Shown here: positions 14,099 to 23,376 of the stretch, piece after piece
How positions within the stretch are numbered: the first letter of the stretch is position 1
How the letters are laid out: each line of letters opens with the position of its first letter
Origin: a virus
Strand: one strand, 5' to 3'
IMG/VR virus record: IMGVR_UViG_3300020214_000876
Location: 1-25,206 of that record
DNA length: 25,206 bases
Made by a program: the position numbers and the translations under genes
The notes under the pieces: generated by a model
Told to the model about the DNA's origin: nothing
The model's input: only the letters and a program-made list of their open reading frames with translations
Database searches by the model: none

Positions 14099-15232
14099 AT
14101 GTTTGGGTTCAAACAATTTGTTCCGTTAACGGAACAAAAGCAAAAGAAAGTCGTTCGCGGAATACAGCACCTACCCCATCCTGCTGAATCAGCATTCGCG
14201 TCTAGGCGTGGTGCGATTGGATCAGCTCTCTCCAAAATCTCCAGCGTTGTAAGCGGACGCGCTCCTGTAACTAAAAAAGTTGATGATAGCATGTCCTTTC
14301 AAGTCGATGAGAAAGGTGGCGTAAAATATAAAGGTCCAGGTGCAAAATATAACTATTCAGTAGAAGATATTAAAAGGCAATATGCAAATAAACCATATAT
14401 TGCTCAAAAACTTATTGCTATCTTTAATCATATCGGCAAAGTTCTTCCAAAAGGTCGTGGCGAGTATCAGGGTGGATATCTAAGTTCTGATAATGAGCGC
14501 GAAGAAAAAGATGGTAAAATTAGTCATAGACCAAATACGATTCGCTATTCAGTAGATCGAAACTCTCCTGAGGGAAAAAGAATTGCACGATCTCGTGTAA
14601 GTATAGTTCTTCACTCTCGAATTCTTAAAAACGGAAGCACAACACCAATCGGTGAAGGTGAGTTAGAAGAACATCCTGATGTACATGTAATGAGTCATAT
14701 AGTCTCTGCCAGAGAAAGAAATCTTTCTCCGAAAGAAAAAACAAGAATTGCGCAGCAAATTTCTTCTGCTAGAAAACTCGGAAAAAATCATTCATATGAA
14801 CATTTAGATGGGCATAATGAAACTCTTCTTCGATATGCGAATTCCTCTGTTGATACGAATGAGCGACTCTCTGCCAAAGGATATAAGCGATTTCTTCAAA
14901 GATATCATCAAAAAAGAATTGATTCAGTAAAAACAGAAAAAGCGAAAGCACAAAAGAATGCAGAGATGCAAGCTGCACTCGATCATGTTGATAGAAATGA
15001 AGATAATTTTAATAAAACATTTAACATTTATCGTAATATTCAACAAGCGACCTACACTGTAGCGAATTCGTTATCTCGCAGCGCGAGTGGTGGATACGAT
15101 CATGATATTGATGGACAAGAATCTAGCGGAGAGGGATTCGTTTCTGGCAATATGAAGTTCGTTCCGAGAGCATTTACACAAGCCAATCGTCGTCGTTCGG
15201 CGGTACTCAAGGCTCAGAAGAGTGTAATATGA
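14099..15232 (+). CDS. DUF6267-like phage protein, possible internal head protein
   Basis: 377 residues. RGIQHLPHPAESAF, SGRAPVTKKVDDSMSF and HRPNTIRYSVDRNSPEGKRIARSRVSIVLHS follow, from memory, the DUF6267 family common in T4-like marine phages, where the segment after PVT often reads KxDG as in nucleotidyltransferase/ligase folds. Here it is K-V-D-D, so ligase chemistry is doubtful. The first residues, MFGFKQFVPLTEQ, resemble a T4 capsid targeting peptide, with L10-T-E12 as a possible maturation protease site. The C-terminus is basic with RRRSAVLKAQK. The gene has GGAG at 14090-14093, a late-like box at 14063, and an ATGA overlap with the next gene. The function is not known. Confidence 0.75.
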   Translation: MFGFKQFVPLTEQKQKKVVRGIQHLPHPAESAFASRRGAIGSALSKISSVVSGRAPVTKKVDDSMSFQVDEKGGVKYKGPGAKYNYSVEDIKRQYANKPYIAQKLIAIFNHIGKVLPKGRGEYQGGYLSSDNEREEKDGKISHRPNTIRYSVDRNSPEGKRIARSRVSIVLHSRILKNGSTTPIGEGELEEHPDVHVMSHIVSARERNLSPKEKTRIAQQISSARKLGKNHSYEHLDGHNETLLRYANSSVDTNERLSAKGYKRFLQRYHQKRIDSVKTEKAKAQKNAEMQAALDHVDRNEDNFNKTFNIYRNIQQATYTVANSLSRSASGGYDHDIDGQESSGEGFVSGNMKFVPRAFTQANRRRSAVLKAQKSVI

Positions 15233-17826
15233 GTAAAGCAACATTTACATTCGGAAGATTCAATGTTCCAACTGAAAATGGGCATGGAAAACTTATCTCG
15301 AGAGTTCAAGCACATGCTGAAGAATCTGGTGGTTCTCACTATATCTTCCCATCTCACTCTCAAGATAACAAGAAAAATCCATTGAGTCATGGTGAGAAAG
15401 TCGGCTTTATGCGTCGTTTATTCCCGAGTGCAAATATTGTTTCCTCTGGTAGAGTGCGAACAGCAATTGATGCGATGAAGCATTTAGAAAAGAAAGGACA
15501 TACTCATGTAACTATGGTTGTCGGTTCTGATCGTGTCTCAGAATTTAGCTCTCTTCTAAATAAATATAGAAAAAAAGAGTTTCCAGGAATTAAAAAAGTT
15601 AGTGTTGTTTCCGCAGGGCAACGAGATCCAGATGCAGAGGGCGCCGAAGGCGAATCAGCATCAAAACATCGAGCAATGATCACTAATGGACAACGCAATA
15701 AGTTTATTTCAAAATACAGTGATCGTAAATTAGGTGCTGCTATACATGATGCGGCAAAAAAAGGTATGCAAATGGAATACACAAACCCAATCGGAATTTT
15801 TCTACTCGGTGGTCCAGGAAGCGGAAAAGATTATGTTCTTACGAACATTTTTTCTCGCTTTAATTTGACTGAAGTTCAATTAGATCAAGTGCTTAATGGA
15901 AAAATACAAGAGTTAATTGAGTTAAATCAGAACATCGTGATAAATGGTGCTGCAGACATTGAAAAAGTGGAACTTGTCAAGAACATTCTTGAGGGATATA
16001 CATTCGATACAGTATATGTTTCTGTGTCAAATAAAATTAGTCGTGCGCGTAATCAAGAAAGAGAAAATCCATTACCAGAAAATAAGCGTTTAGAAAAATG
16101 GTATCGCGCTGAGAAACTTGCAGAGGAACTTGATTGTTTTATATTTAATAATTCAATTAATCTTTCTGAATCGAGTCAAATGGAGCAAATTGTATTCGGC
16201 AGTCAAATTGAAAAATTACTTGAACGCCTTACATCAAATGGATTGCTTTTATCTGAGAAAACATTTAAATCAGTTCCGATGGACAAAGATTCAGGCTTAC
16301 CTAAAAAATATGTCTCTGGATTAAGTACGTCAACAGCATTAGCACGTAAAGCACATTGGAAAAGGAAATCAAAACTCTCAGATAGTGATCCAAGAGCATA
16401 CGAACCAGCTCCTGGTGATGCAAATGCTAAAACAAAACCAAGTAGGCACACACTTGCTGTTCGTAAGATGATGGATGAATCAGAACAGATTGATGAGGGT
16501 GGACCAGGTTTATGGGCAAACATTCATGCCAAAAGACAAAGAATTAAACGTGGTTCTGGTGAAAGAATGCGTAAGGTGGGCGATAAGGGTGCGCCAACAC
16601 CAGAACAGTTGAAGTCTGCTAAAAATGAAGAAATACAAGAGTTTGATGAGGCACAAAAGAAACTTCGTCCATCGCGCTGGAGAGCAGAGTGGCGTTTAGG
16701 CACACAATCTGAAGTTGACAAAAATAACAAAAAGATTTATGATCGCCTTGCAAAAACTGATCCAGATAAAGCCAAAGCATTCCACGATAATCTCATGAAA
16801 CTTCGTAAAGAAGAACTCGATCAAATTGATGATATAAATTCTTTATTTGAAATGCAATTAGCTGGCACTGATGAATATCGTAAACATGCGATTGCCATGA
16901 CGCCAGGACAAGGAGAGATTGGTAATGTTAATAAGTCTAATAAATCTAATAAAAATGAAGAACATAAGGACTGCGGAACAACAGATTGTTGCGGAGAATG
17001 TGAGTCGGTTGGAGAAGCAGTTAGAGAAGATTCTGAATCGATCATCGACGCGACGCCGACGCTCGATACAGAAACAAAAAAGCGAAAAAGATCACAAATA
17101 GTTCCACCAAATTCTCGTGACATTGCAAAAGATGGTCCCGCAGTTATTACAACAGGCGCTTATGTTCGCGAAGCAGCGAAACCTCTTAAATCGTTTATGA
17201 AAACACCACGCCAACTTCCTGGTCCTCCTGGAGGACATTCAGTTCCTCCAGGATATGAGCGCGTGAAGTCTTGGGGTGGTGCTTATGAACTTCGTAAGAT
17301 TAAAGAAAAACCAACCACTGTAAAAGAAGCAGTAGAATATCATATCGAAAATCAAGTTTCGTTTACAGATAATATCTTTCGTCCAGGATCTGATATGTTT
17401 TTTAAAATAATTGAGGAAGCGAAAAAACTCTACGCAGAGGGCAAGTACACACCCGCTGATGAGTATGAACAAGACATGCTTAACTCGAACATCGGCGAAA
17501 AAGCAACTTACAACGATCAGGAAGTAATTCTCGATTATCCATTCGAAGAAGAACTAAACGAAGCTGATGATCCAACAGATGGCAAAGGTATCGGTAAACC
17601 ATTTCGCTCTGGCGGTGGTGGTGCAGTTTATGTTCGTGTTGGAGATGGCGTGCGCAAAATCAACTTCAGTCAATCTGGTATGCAGAAAAAGTATATGGAC
17701 CCAGGTGCAACTCGTAGTTTTGTCGCTCGTCATCATTGTTTAACGAATAAAGATAAGACGAGCGCATCCTATTGGGCATGCCGTTGGCCAAGATTTTTTA
17801 GCAATTCGGGTAAAATATGGTGGTAA
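15229..17826 (+). CDS. Multi-module fusion: nucleotidylyltransferase-like + P-loop kinase-like + internal-protein modules
   Basis: 865 residues. Residues 1-185 form a cytidylyltransferase/NMNAT-like domain: FGRFNVPTENGHGKLI stands for the T/HxGH motif, with one residue more than the usual PTxGH spacing, and SASKHR for the C-terminal ISxTxxR motif. Residues 190-330 are a P-loop domain with GGPGSGKD (194-201), like phage nucleotide kinases. The rest is a chain of small modules: a basic stretch after EQIDE423; a charged segment after FDE474; a Cys-rich patch (C582, C587, C588, C591); a VKEAVEYHIENQVSF module; and after LNE778 a final module GKPFRSGGGG...RSFVARHHC...SASYWACRW. Several module borders carry I/L-x-E motifs like those cut by T4 prohead protease gp21. 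It may be processed and packaged in the head; substrates are unknown. Confidence 0.78.
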   Translation: MSKATFTFGRFNVPTENGHGKLISRVQAHAEESGGSHYIFPSHSQDNKKNPLSHGEKVGFMRRLFPSANIVSSGRVRTAIDAMKHLEKKGHTHVTMVVGSDRVSEFSSLLNKYRKKEFPGIKKVSVVSAGQRDPDAEGAEGESASKHRAMITNGQRNKFISKYSDRKLGAAIHDAAKKGMQMEYTNPIGIFLLGGPGSGKDYVLTNIFSRFNLTEVQLDQVLNGKIQELIELNQNIVINGAADIEKVELVKNILEGYTFDTVYVSVSNKISRARNQERENPLPENKRLEKWYRAEKLAEELDCFIFNNSINLSESSQMEQIVFGSQIEKLLERLTSNGLLLSEKTFKSVPMDKDSGLPKKYVSGLSTSTALARKAHWKRKSKLSDSDPRAYEPAPGDANAKTKPSRHTLAVRKMMDESEQIDEGGPGLWANIHAKRQRIKRGSGERMRKVGDKGAPTPEQLKSAKNEEIQEFDEAQKKLRPSRWRAEWRLGTQSEVDKNNKKIYDRLAKTDPDKAKAFHDNLMKLRKEELDQIDDINSLFEMQLAGTDEYRKHAIAMTPGQGEIGNVNKSNKSNKNEEHKDCGTTDCCGECESVGEAVREDSESIIDATPTLDTETKKRKRSQIVPPNSRDIAKDGPAVITTGAYVREAAKPLKSFMKTPRQLPGPPGGHSVPPGYERVKSWGGAYELRKIKEKPTTVKEAVEYHIENQVSFTDNIFRPGSDMFFKIIEEAKKLYAEGKYTPADEYEQDMLNSNIGEKATYNDQEVILDYPFEEELNEADDPTDGKGIGKPFRSGGGGAVYVRVGDGVRKINFSQSGMQKKYMDPGATRSFVARHHCLTNKDKTSASYWACRWPRFFSNSGKIWW
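16930..16956 (+). repeat. Short in-frame 9-base tandem repeat
   Basis: Three near-identical 9-base units (AATAAGTCT, AATAAATCT, AATAAAAAT) encode Asn-Lys-Ser, Asn-Lys-Ser, Asn-Lys-Asn in the linker before the Cys-rich patch of the fusion protein. The look is that of replication slippage in a flexible linker. Confidence 0.6.
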
Positions 17827-18108: not shown

Positions 18109-20670
18109 ATGGCAGAGGTAAAGATTCCATCAAAATTGCATTTGATGTCGCCATCATTTCAAAAGAAATGGTACAAAAAACACGGTATGGAAATGCCAAC
18201 TGCATCAAAAGAGAAAGAGCCAGAGGGTAAATCAGCTGCTGCAGCAAAACGTATAAAAGTTGCGTCAAGAAAAAATGTTAATGTTAAGCCAAATTCTGTT
18301 CGTGCGATTAATGTTGCTCGTCAAAAAGCCTATATGGATAAAGGTGGACGTCCGCCAATCGGAGCAATGGGTTCTGATGGTAGCAATGTAATGGCTGGTG
18401 CTGGTCAATCTACGATTAGAGATTTAAGAGCCAGCATTAAAGCAGGATTTAATCCAAAAGTTTCTCTCGATCCATATCAATCAAAAAGAGCAAAGAAAAC
18501 AAAAAATGAATCTGTTGATGAAGCAGCGAAACCAGATGCTTCAATGGCGATGACGAATCAATTAAAAATGAAAATGATCTCTGATAAAGATAAGAGAACA
18601 CTTGGTAAGGTTGCTGTGCTTATGGCACGTGAACGCGCACTTACTGCTCAAAGAAACAAAGATAAAAAGAATGCATATGTTCGTGGACTAGGATTAAATG
18701 CAATGAGGGCTGGTAATGTAGATCCAGCAAGAGGTCATAGTCCAACTCGTTTTGGTCGCGAAGTGTTGGCAAAAGAAGAAGTCGAGCAGATTGATGAGAA
18801 AATTAATCTCGTCAAAGCCAAAATGGGCGATGTTATCAAAGACTTCCAAAAATCTGATGCTCCACAATTCAAGGGTAAGTCAGCAGAAGAACGTCGTAAG
18901 ATGGCGCTTGCTGCTAAACTCGGCGCAGAAAGAGAAGCAGGAATGCGCGAAGAAGTCGAGCAGATTGATGAACTTTCTCCAAAAACTGCACAAAGTTATC
19001 TTGACAAACGTCCGCATCCAAAAGTTTCAGATATTGCTCGTCCTGATGGTATGACAAGAGACCAAGCTGTAAATAGAATAATTAGTCGTGCACGTGCAAA
19101 AAGAATAATTAGGGTTGCAAACTTAAAACAAAATCCAAGCCCACCTCCTAAATCAACTGAAGTAGATGATAACCCATACGGATATGGGCAAGGTCGGTAT
19201 ATGGGAGACAATGTAAACCTAGAGGGTCAAACGATGAATGAAGTTACAAAAAAAGAAGCCGAAGAAATACTCGGCGGTCCAGTCAAAAACAAACCAAAGG
19301 GTCCAGCAGGTAAACATCCTCTTGGTTATAGACTTGCAAGAAGTGCTGCTCGTAAAGCAATGAACAATATGCAAGCATCGATGAAGAAAGAAGAGGTCGA
19401 GCAGATTGATGAATCAGGTGAAACATCTTTGAAACTATCTCAATTAGCAAAACAAAAAGCAACTGACTTAGAAAGATATCCATCAAAAGATGGAAGCCTT
19501 GGAAAACTCAGAAAAAATCCAGATAAACAAAAAATAAGAAGATTGCGCGATTTGGCAAACAAAGCATACGCAAGATCAAGAAATCCTACTGGTGCGCCAA
19601 CTGGTAATATCGAAGGTGGTGGGCATAAAAGTCTTCGTCGACAAGGAGCCACTGATAAAGATATTCCACCAAACCCAATGAACATGAGCAAATTAATGGG
19701 ATATTTTAAAGAAGAAGTCGAGCAGGTGGATGAGGCTGGCAAGGGATATGGTCCAGGTTGGATGCTAAAACATCCAGATGGTAAAACTCTTGATGCTAAA
19801 TTAAAAGCAAAAAAAGAACTCGAAAGAAAACGACAAAAATCATACGGCGATCCGAAAGCTGGTGTCTCTGTTAAATCAGAAGAAGTCGAGCAGGTGGATG
19901 AAGTGACTGGATATGAGGGAGTAAAAAATCGCACAGATATAATTAAAAGAGCAGCCGCAATGAATAGAATGGGCAAACAAACATTTCTTGATAGAGTAAA
20001 GACACGTGCTGCTGAAATACGAAAAGAAAAGGCAAAAAAGAAACTTGCAAATGAAGAAGTCGAGCAGATTGATGAACTCAAGAAGTCTACACTTGCTTCT
20101 TATGTTAAGAGAGCAACACGCGATGTAGCATCAGCAAGTCGACTTCAAAGAGGTTATGAAACGGATGCAGCCAGAAAAGGTGATGCAGCAAATTATGTTG
20201 CAAGGGGTAGTGATTTAGCAGCAAAAACAATGAGAAAATTTGCTGGTAAAAGATCTAGAGGCATTGCAAAGGCTGTTGATAAATTAGCAAAAGAAGAAGT
20301 CGAGCAGATTGAAGAAGGTAAAGCAGATACATCACTTGCTGCAAAGGCACAAAAGTCTGGTATTTCATTGGGAACACTTAAATCAGTATTTCGTCGTGGA
20401 GTTGCTGCATGGAATTCAGGACATCGTCCAGGAACAACTCCATCACAATGGGGTCATGCTCGTGTAAATTCTTACATCAACAAGGGTAAGACTTATCACA
20501 CCGCAGATAAAGATCTACGCGAAGAAAAAGCCAAAGGTAAAGATCCAGAAACATCAACCGAAGTTGAACTCGCCAAGAAGCATGGTGATCCAAAAAAGAT
20601 CACATACGGTGATGTTATCAAAGCGCGTATCGAAGCATCTAAAAAGAAAGCATTAAATAAGGGCGAGTAA
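18109..20670 (+). CDS. Modular internal-protein polyprotein candidate with seven EEVEQ[IV][DE]E linkers
   Basis: 853 residues, very basic between acidic linkers. Seven copies of EEVEQ(I/V)(D/E)E end at residues 230, 288, 435, 542, 598, 656 and 736, dividing the protein into pieces of about 230, 58, 147, 107, 56, 58, 80 and 117 residues. The I-D-E/I-E-E (or V-D-E) endings fit the T4 gp21 prohead protease rule I/L-x-E. Pieces I recognise from other marine T4-like phages as separate or differently joined modules include INLVKAKMGDVIKDFQKSDA (231-288), GKGYGPGWMLK (543-598), LKKSTLASYVKRA (657-736) and the C-terminal SGHRPGTTPSQWGHARVNSYI domain (DUF5824-like). No enzyme motif is visible. It probably supplies several small DNA-binding or scaffold-core proteins to the head; cleavage is inferred. 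Confidence 0.8.
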   Translation: MAEVKIPSKLHLMSPSFQKKWYKKHGMEMPTASKEKEPEGKSAAAAKRIKVASRKNVNVKPNSVRAINVARQKAYMDKGGRPPIGAMGSDGSNVMAGAGQSTIRDLRASIKAGFNPKVSLDPYQSKRAKKTKNESVDEAAKPDASMAMTNQLKMKMISDKDKRTLGKVAVLMARERALTAQRNKDKKNAYVRGLGLNAMRAGNVDPARGHSPTRFGREVLAKEEVEQIDEKINLVKAKMGDVIKDFQKSDAPQFKGKSAEERRKMALAAKLGAEREAGMREEVEQIDELSPKTAQSYLDKRPHPKVSDIARPDGMTRDQAVNRIISRARAKRIIRVANLKQNPSPPPKSTEVDDNPYGYGQGRYMGDNVNLEGQTMNEVTKKEAEEILGGPVKNKPKGPAGKHPLGYRLARSAARKAMNNMQASMKKEEVEQIDESGETSLKLSQLAKQKATDLERYPSKDGSLGKLRKNPDKQKIRRLRDLANKAYARSRNPTGAPTGNIEGGGHKSLRRQGATDKDIPPNPMNMSKLMGYFKEEVEQVDEAGKGYGPGWMLKHPDGKTLDAKLKAKKELERKRQKSYGDPKAGVSVKSEEVEQVDEVTGYEGVKNRTDIIKRAAAMNRMGKQTFLDRVKTRAAEIRKEKAKKKLANEEVEQIDELKKSTLASYVKRATRDVASASRLQRGYETDAARKGDAANYVARGSDLAAKTMRKFAGKRSRGIAKAVDKLAKEEVEQIEEGKADTSLAAKAQKSGISLGTLKSVFRRGVAAWNSGHRPGTTPSQWGHARVNSYINKGKTYHTADKDLREEKAKGKDPETSTEVELAKKHGDPKKITYGDVIKARIEASKKKALNKGE
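18775..20316 (+). repeat. Seven dispersed 24-base direct repeats encoding EEVEQ[IV][DE]E
   Basis: Copies at 18775-18798, 18949-18972, 19390-19413, 19711-19734, 19879-19902, 20053-20076 and 20293-20316. The core AGAAGTCGAGCAG is identical in six copies; the third has a single A-to-G change (AGAGGTCGAGCAG). The last bases vary between ATTGATGA, GTGGATGA and ATTGAAGA. All are in frame with unequal spacing (58 to 147 codons), so this is a coding repeat, not a CRISPR. The fixed use of the GTC, GAG and CAG codons is unlike the A/T-ending codons favoured around them. Confidence 0.9.
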
Positions 20671-20671
20671 T

Positions 20672-21097
20672 ATGGCAGAGAAAGATTCAGGCGAATACGA
20701 TTACGAAGGCGACATGGCAATGTCGCAACTTAAAAGTATTATTACAAACGCCAAAAAACTGCATGATATGTTAGAACCGAATGCGAACTTACCCGAGTGG
20801 GTTCAAAGCAAAATTACTCTTGCCGAAGACTACGTTGTAACTGCAGCAAATTATATGGAGAGTGAAATGAATGAAGAAATGAAACCATACGTGAAAGCAG
20901 TGCAGCAAAAGTTTGACGCTCAAGCAAAAGCGCAGAAAATGGGCAAGAAACAGGCAGGAACATTATCTGCAAAGAAAGAACGTGAACAAGAAAAAGGTGC
21001 AGCCATTGCTCAGAAAACGATTGATATTGTCAAGGGCAAAAAAAATAAAATTAATGTAAAGCCAGAATTAGCAGGTGAGAAAGATGCAAACCTTTAA
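20672..21097 (+). CDS. Conserved marine T4-like phage module protein (YEGDMAxSQL family)
   Basis: 141 residues. SGEYDYEGDMAMSQLKSI, then LEPNANLPEWVQSKITLAEDYV and YMESEMNEE are strongly patterned and I recognise them from many T4-like marine phages, where this helical module is sometimes free-standing and sometimes fused inside long internal-protein genes like the one before it. The last 55 residues are lysine- and glutamine-rich (AKAQKMGKKQAGTLSAKKERE) and likely disordered. Function unknown; its neighbours suggest a head-internal or assembly role. It begins one base after the polyprotein stop and overlaps the next gene by 14 nt. Confidence 0.8.
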   Translation: MAEKDSGEYDYEGDMAMSQLKSIITNAKKLHDMLEPNANLPEWVQSKITLAEDYVVTAANYMESEMNEEMKPYVKAVQQKFDAQAKAQKMGKKQAGTLSAKKEREQEKGAAIAQKTIDIVKGKKNKINVKPELAGEKDANL

Positions 21098-23052: not shown

Positions 23053-23376
23053 ATGAAAAAATTTAAAACCCTAAAAGAAGAAATTATAAACACAGCAAGT
23101 GGTGCAAATATTTCTGGTTTGCCGCCAACAGATCCACCAGTTTCTAAAAAACATAATCCAATTTTGTTTGCTGGTAAAAGAGTTTTTAAGGTATCAAGTA
23201 ATGCATTTAATAAAGCAAAACTTGGTAAGATGTATAGAAAGCATTATAAGACTTACGTCGAAGGCGATATTGGAGAAGAAATCAGACAATACGCCAAAGA
23301 GAATCCTGATGCACCGATTATTGTTGAAGATGAATTGACGGGTGCAATGGTTTATTTAAGATACGGAAAGAGGTAA
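23053..23376 (+). CDS. Small conserved phage protein of the internal-protein type
   Basis: 107 residues. NTASGANISGLPPTDPPVSKK, GKRVFKVSSNAFNKAKLGKMYRKHYKTYV and EEIRQYAKENPDAPIIVEDELTGAMVYLRYG form a pattern I recognise from small proteins and fused modules of T4-like marine phages (AxLxGxPPxxPPV...GAMVYLxYG). The first residues, MKKFKTLKEEI, have an aromatic residue at position 4 and L7-K-E9, a shortened version of the F-x-x-F/L-x-E targeting pattern. Function is unknown; the company of targeting-like neighbours suggests a head-internal protein. It starts 3 nt after the nuclease-like gene. Confidence 0.78.
   Translation: MKKFKTLKEEIINTASGANISGLPPTDPPVSKKHNPILFAGKRVFKVSSNAFNKAKLGKMYRKHYKTYVEGDIGEEIRQYAKENPDAPIIVEDELTGAMVYLRYGKR

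Follow-up and report, generated by a model that had tools for sequence, protein, structure and literature searches.

A linker-joined chain of small basic modules in a T4-like aquatic phage, a putative polyprotein of internal head proteins

The product of the gene at positions 18109–20670 of the DNA analysed here (the window, a 25,206-base virus fragment from IMG/VR) is probably a polyprotein that comprises several small basic internal head proteins. It would be packaged and cut by a gp21-type protease, and its linkers would also act as recombination joints. The proposal is based on the match of the linkers to a known cleavage site, on the modularity of the chain, and on the occurrence of its modules as separate genes in other phages. 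Gene content and best matches place the window with the T4-like aquatic phages, and its phage is Kyanoviridae-like. The genes of the window include PolB, UvsX, a DnaB-type helicase, nucleotide-sugar genes, a cytidyltransferase, DUF5824, and a lysis enzyme; its closest matches are the Pelagibacter phage HTVC008M, the Methylophilales phage Melnitz, P-TIM68, and C48C1, all Kyanoviridae.

The gene begins immediately 3′ of its neighbour (TAAATG), and close orthologues are found at the loci L140, L141, and L142. Its 853-residue product contains seven copies of EEVEQ[IV][DE]E, ending at residues 230, 288, 435, 542, 598, 656, and 736, exactly as the initial annotation had reported. The residue at P3 is I in five of the linkers and V in two, and the seven are near-identical as DNA (GAAGAAGTCGAGCAG). 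No copy arose in 5000 composition-preserving shuffles of the chain. A chance or low-complexity acidic repeat has a negligible probability and is already refuted by this result and by the 554 distinct junctions in related contigs. The linkers bound eight segments, the first of 230 residues and the others of 58, 147, 107, 56, 58, 80, and 117. The segments between the linkers had been described as basic, and this holds for all eight, each with a pI of at least 10 (core pI 10.0–10.9, net charge +6 to +29, 6–25 kDa); all eight are thus small and basic, as expected of a T4-type internal head protein. Module 4 has no homologue among the loci fetched. The features of the chain are as follows.

18109..20670, + strand: putative polyprotein of internal head proteins, linker-joined, 853 aa, ATG to TAA
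18109..18774, + strand: module 1, N-terminal; basic, pI 10.6, net charge +29
18775..18798, + strand: linker 1, EEVEQIDE, ending at residue 230
18799..18948, + strand: module 2 (KINLVKAKMGDVIKDF...); 27 distinct homologous sites
18949..18972, + strand: linker 2, EEVEQIDE, ending at residue 288
18973..19389, + strand: module 3, probably 3a and 3b (VTKKEAEEILGGPVK...); linkers ahead of 3b in other phages
19390..19413, + strand: linker 3, EEVEQIDE, ending at residue 435
19414..19710, + strand: module 4 (SGETSLKLSQLAKQK...)
19711..19734, + strand: linker 4, EEVEQVDE, ending at residue 542
19735..19878, + strand: module 5 (AGKGYGPGWMLKHPDG...); related sites at L064, L185, and L187
19879..19902, + strand: linker 5, EEVEQVDE, ending at residue 598
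19903..20052, + strand: module 6 (VTGYEGVKNRTDIIKR...); other linkers and partners ahead at L140, L278, and L323
20053..20076, + strand: linker 6, EEVEQIDE, ending at residue 656
20077..20292, + strand: module 7 (LKKSTLASYVKRATRD...); [ILV]xE ahead at 60 distinct loci
20293..20316, + strand: linker 7, EEVEQIEE, ending at residue 736
20317..20526, + strand: module 8, DUF5824 domain (PF19141), Pfam E 5e-15
20527..20667, + strand: C-terminal module (VELAKKHGDPKKITYGDVIKAR...) after a decayed LREE junction; a module of its own at 12 distinct sites elsewhere

The T4 prohead protease gp21 cuts after L/I-x-E (PMC9026906), and the sites that it cuts in T4 Alt include ITE and LTE (PMC5694885). Because a motif search would find its own motif, the query was module 7 with no linker attached, and its matches were compared together with loci from other searches. 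The residue directly before module 7 (P1) is Glu at all 60 distinct loci. P3 is I at 39, L at 19, and V at 2 of them, so that 58 of the 60 show the L/I-x-E form, and P2 is D at 52. The farther-upstream flanks of module 7 contain 6.6% Glu and 15% I/L/V. Fourteen of the loci deviate from the EE-V-E core and all fourteen retain [ILV]xE. The residues preceding DUF5824 are more variable (RVNE, RMDE, TIDE, VVAE, ELDE). The gp23 propeptides of linker-bearing relatives carry LLE/A, LFE/A, LNE/A, LNE/T, LQE/T, LAE/A, and LWE/A at the expected place (the slash marks the predicted cut), where cutting is predicted by homology. A strong depletion of [IL]xE inside the modules was expected and not seen (85 observed vs 97.6 expected, z −1.4), and the slight depletion is not counted as support. 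The linkers had been proposed as maturation sites of the gp21 type; their agreement with the rule stands in P1 and P3, but the V at P3 of two window linkers lies outside the L/I stated for T4. The chain appears to behave like a gp21 substrate: the match of its sites is well supported, and from it we infer the cutting.

The modularity of the chain was assessed on 554 distinct junctions in related contigs, using families with three or more members. At the linkers, more than one partner was found in 34 of 37 left families and 33 of 35 right families. With the breakpoint moved 20 residues into the modules, more than one partner was seen in 2 of 30 right families (+20) and 6 of 28 left families (−20); partner switching is rare 20–30 residues away from the linkers. 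The clustered module-7 family alone has 74 different left partners. At the nucleotide level, the identity between the window and L183 (on the same contig as L140) falls from 0.95 ahead of linker 1 and 0.96 in the linker itself to 0.23 beyond it; the corresponding values for linker 7 are 0.95, 0.79, and 0.13. The DUF5824 domain lies inside the nucleotidyltransferase (NTase) gene in L141 and L142, and in L007 it forms a stand-alone gene with an N-terminal leader. There is strong support for partner changes at the linkers rather than inside the modules, and the earlier statement that modules appear in other arrangements in related phages is confirmed.

The linkers are also conserved at the codon level. 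In all seven window linkers VEQ is written GTC GAG CAG, whereas outside the linkers the ORF has CAA for 23 of 23 Q, GTC for 3 of 37 V, and GAG for 7 of 35 E. Across 244 linkers compared with their own ORFs, CAG accounts for 66% vs 27%, GAG at E4 for 56% vs 23%, and GTC for 37% vs 14%. Such a bias would be expected of an element that acts at the DNA level only, a recombination or regulatory site translated by happenstance and without a role in the protein. However, the codons differ between phages (GTT, GTC, GTA; GAA, GAG; CAA, CAG) while the residues stay constant, and decayed linkers retain [ILV]xE, which makes this explanation very improbable. The P1 Glu is encoded by GAA in 158 cases and by GAG in 86; this indicates that it is retained as a residue. 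The simplest reading is that the linkers would have spread through copying, with the cut site held by selection, and they may provide the homology for module exchange.

Further junctions of the chain have probably decayed. The [LIV]xE pattern occurs outside the seven linkers at two sites only, ESVDE138 and LREE. At the position where the window reads ESVDE138, L141 has EEVEQIEE inside the N-terminal segment, and module 1 probably consists of two modules (1a and 1b) joined there. The stretch VTKKEAEEILGG follows GQTMNE378 in the window and EEVQIDE, EEAEQIDE, EEIQIDE, and similar sequences in other phages. LREE (residues 803–806) stands directly ahead of the separately conserved C-terminal module VELAKKHGDPK..., and other junctions precede its homologues at 12 distinct sites. 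The seven linkers are therefore a minimum count, and there may be up to about 11 modules; of the eight modules originally suggested, the eight linker-bounded segments are real, but they probably do not make up the full tally. Degenerate linkers (SEQIDE, EEIQEFDE, and EELDQIDD, at 16474–16497, 16624–16650, and 16807–16833) are also present in the upstream gene, whose modules come after standard linkers in relatives. Separately, NTase relatives belong to the virion proteins of S-SCSM1 and S-CREM2, with starts (MKSFLQFLKEA, MKNFSSFLTEA) resembling the T4 capsid-targeting sequence (CTS). The core of the gene directly downstream of the chain is separate in the window and fused inside the chain of several relatives, indicating that both fusion and fission happen. 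The largest chain seen is a 1432-aa stop-to-stop frame with nine linkers on the minus strand of L105. The decayed linkers, the linkers of the upstream gene, and the behaviour of the linker as a DNA cassette, all seen here, had gone unmentioned in the initial annotation.

18508..18522, + strand: probable decayed linker ESVDE/A, residues 134–138
19222..19242, + strand: probable decayed linker EGQTMNE/V, residues 372–378
15229..17826, + strand: upstream gene, nucleotidyltransferase with a P-loop kinase-like part and modules with degenerate linkers; phrog_3041/395 cytidyltransferase
20672..21097, + strand: stand-alone gene, core GEYDYEGDMAxSQL...; the core is a fused module in L140, L183, and L202
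21075..21542, + strand: protein with the T4-CTS-like start MQTFNEFLNEA just after the GTG of the ORF; homologues MLKFSEFLKEE, MLKFNEFLNEE, and MLKFNEFLKEE

A T4-type capsid-targeting sequence (aromatic residues at 4 and 7, I/L at 8, E at 10) was looked for at the N-terminus of the chain and is absent: the chain starts with MAEVKIPSKLHLMSPSFQ and its orthologues with MPVKVPPLLHKMS and similar sequences. For this reason the chain is not classed as a T4-type internal protein, and the absence, which leaves prohead entry to some other signal, counts against the packaged polyprotein. Gene starts were scored with a T4-CTS-like pattern (aromatic at 4, aromatic or L at 7, hydrophobic at 8, E at 10). 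In S-CREM2 all four genes with such a start encode virion proteins (p = 0.003); genome-wide, S-SCSM1 has two, of which one is a virion protein, so the statistic depends mainly on S-CREM2. N-terminal leaders also precede modules of the chain in other phages. Module 2 in L233 follows the short leader MKTFKELSE/KINL in place of a linker, and DUF5824 in C48C1 is a separate gene with the leader MITFKKYLEE ahead. The small protein MKSFKEFIKE/DAPANAMGAAGIS of the contig G002 aligns in register with TNLWE/AAPANAMGSAGIS of the gp23 of the same phage, which makes the end of the leader coincide with the predicted gp23 cut. Judged from these arrangements, leader and linker can apparently be interchanged ahead of modules. 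Some small proteins copy the N-terminal arm of gp23 (APANAMGAAGIS..GFDPVM; GFTGSSAAEGPTAGYDPLM) after a CTS-like leader or near their N-terminus, namely those at L362:16919 onward (G002:C1:156919), S-SCSM1 ORF97 (L179), and S-CREM2 ORF160 (L176). These copies are possibly a capsid-binding mimic. The window gene 23053–23376 has its downstream part (GKRVFKV...) in common with the small proteins carrying the arm.

The chain might instead be a multi-domain virion protein that works intact, as some of the polyvalent proteins of Iyer et al. 2017 do, its linkers being flexible acidic spacers and recombination joints. The codon-level conservation, by which linkers act as DNA cassettes, and the switching of partners at linkers suit such a protein, and the N4 virion RNA polymerase is packaged uncut (PMC5512222). 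We nevertheless consider an uncut chain unlikely. The P1 Glu (60/60) and the I/L/V at P3 are the strictest positions and persist at sites that have otherwise lost the linker; the Glu is kept as a residue in both of its codons, and a plain spacer needs no P1/P3 pair. Moreover, modules elsewhere stand behind N-terminal leaders ending in Glu.

Searches against Pfam and PHROGs, with the whole protein and with each module, recognised DUF5824 alone; the other matches were weak, their meaning doubtful or unknown. The per-segment profile searches suggested earlier as a check were thus informative for DUF5824 and yielded weak matches for the other segments. The AlphaFold model of the whole chain, built on a five-row alignment too shallow to conclude from, has a mean pLDDT of 52 and a pTM of 0.22, with mostly low-confidence helices and no single fold. 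The DUF5824 module is modelled as helical (pLDDT 69). Its model had no match in the PDB at E below 0.001; among viral structures it matched mainly other DUF5824 proteins, and weaker matches were labelled ChaB, XkdF, and prohead protease. A phage protein labelled ChaB superposes with an rmsd of 1.3 across 64 columns (E 0.07), and the XkdF and prohead-protease matches are weaker than this one; on its model, DUF5824 may be ChaB-like.

No gp21 gene lies in the window's own 25 kb, which is a genome fragment only. The lack of a gp21-type protease had been named as grounds for rejecting the polyprotein, and these grounds do not apply to the relatives. Both gp21 (PF03420, Peptidase_S77) and gp23 (PF07068) are present in all six related isolates and in each of the nine linker-bearing contigs that are near-complete; a tenth record is a 44-kb piece. 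In the 173-kb contig G002, read whole in six frames, the motif occurs five times and is confined to two adjacent ORFs. Virion location was taken from the published proteomes of S-SCSM1 (PMC9602691) and S-CREM2 (PMC10665884), whose tables list coverage. The S-SCSM1 ORFs with the linker motif are 89 and 92, each annotated as a virion protein, and a looser pattern gives one further match, outside these two ORFs. In S-CREM2 the loose linker is present in two ORFs, 6 and 160, both in the published virion list. The chance probabilities of this overlap are 0.025 and 0.056, which makes it support, short of proof; it comprises four proteins from two distant cyanophages, two of the four from the loose pattern, and co-purification of abundant proteins from outside the virion is a possibility raised by the authors of the proteomes. 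A further virion protein of S-CREM2 is ORF12 (L174, 7704–10313), annotated as a Cas9/Csn1 endonuclease, with the CTS-like stretch LRFASFMAEA near its N-terminus; these two features would suit a packaged nuclease.

The presence of linker-bearing relatives in mature virions also speaks against a discarded core protein, one that helps to build the prohead core and, once gp21 has cut it into pieces, is mostly lost from the head. In T4 the core proteins do receive several cuts and are for the most part expelled (PMC9026906, PMC5694885). The modules of the chain, however, are basic (pI at least 10), freely swapped, and unlike in sequence, and we regard a discarded core protein as quite unlikely.

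For the polyprotein of internal head proteins we propose the following course. The chain would be translated late and would enter the prohead core by a signal other than the T4-type N-terminal sequence. The gp21-type prohead protease would cut each linker behind its final Glu, [I/L/V]-x-E, freeing about 8–11 modules of roughly 5–25 kDa, each with the acidic linker as its C-terminal tail. The basic modules would remain on the DNA and then be injected. The same linker, kept as a short DNA cassette, would be the joint for module exchange between phages and with neighbouring genes. The earlier proposal of a polyprotein releasing about eight internal head proteins is partly supported: the modularity, the site match, the gp21 of relatives, and the linker-bearing virion proteins of two cyanophages speak for it, the missing N-terminal targeting sequence against it.

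Among known systems, the T4 internal proteins IPI, IPII, and IPIII and Alt resemble the modules in being small and basic and in having sites of the L/I-x-E rule, and the modules would share their place in the head; relatives of the window phage have gp21, gp23, and T4-CTS-like starts as T4 does. In T4, however, each internal protein has a separate gene and its own N-terminal targeting sequence, whereas the window chain joins many modules, has internal sites, and lacks such a sequence. T4 gp22, gp67, and gp68 are single chains with several gp21 cuts (PMC9026906, PMC5694885), as proposed for the window chain, but they serve as scaffold or core and their pieces are mostly lost from the head, in contrast to the unlike basic modules exchanged between phages. 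In the contrast with T4 that had been drawn at the outset, the shuffled chain of unlike modules remains new; a multiply cut substrate is not, since gp21 cuts gp22, gp67, and gp68 into several pieces. The polyvalent proteins of Iyer et al. 2017 (PMC5512222) are also multi-domain, extensively shuffled, and thought to be packaged and delivered, and that paper itself likens them to polyproteins. Differing domains in varying combinations between phages, a hallmark of that class, are seen here in 34/37 and 33/35 families. In the passages of that paper considered here, release occurs via embedded peptidase domains and no repeated linker is described; the word cyanophage is absent from its text. Of polyvalent domains such as MPTase, ART, and DarA, none was detected in the chain, in which Pfam recognises DUF5824 alone. 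In SPN3US and phiKZ the head protease is also Glu-directed, and a propeptide contains several of its sites (PMC9026906, PMC10052503); their cuts mostly take off N-terminal propeptides, and the phiKZ motif is S/A-x-E. A literature search, largely without subscription papers and not covering, for example, the S-PM2 proteome of 2008, found no description of such phage polyproteins.

A wider reading, which we hold tentatively and consider slightly more doubtful than probable, is a combinatorial cargo system in Kyanoviridae-like phages, in which one DNA word serves both as the homology for exchange and as the release site of the head protease. Any module that recombination brings in at a linker would then be packaged and released automatically. 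If this holds, the polyprotein strategy would have no described counterpart among tailed phages in the literature searched, and a very common aquatic phage group would keep the proteins that it injects in an exchangeable chain. The linker would be a direct sequence handle for listing hundreds of unannotated cargo modules, and the mosaicism of so many hypothetical proteins in these phages would be explained. What T4-like phages inject besides DNA would become testable in existing virion proteomes once cutting after [ILV]xE is allowed.
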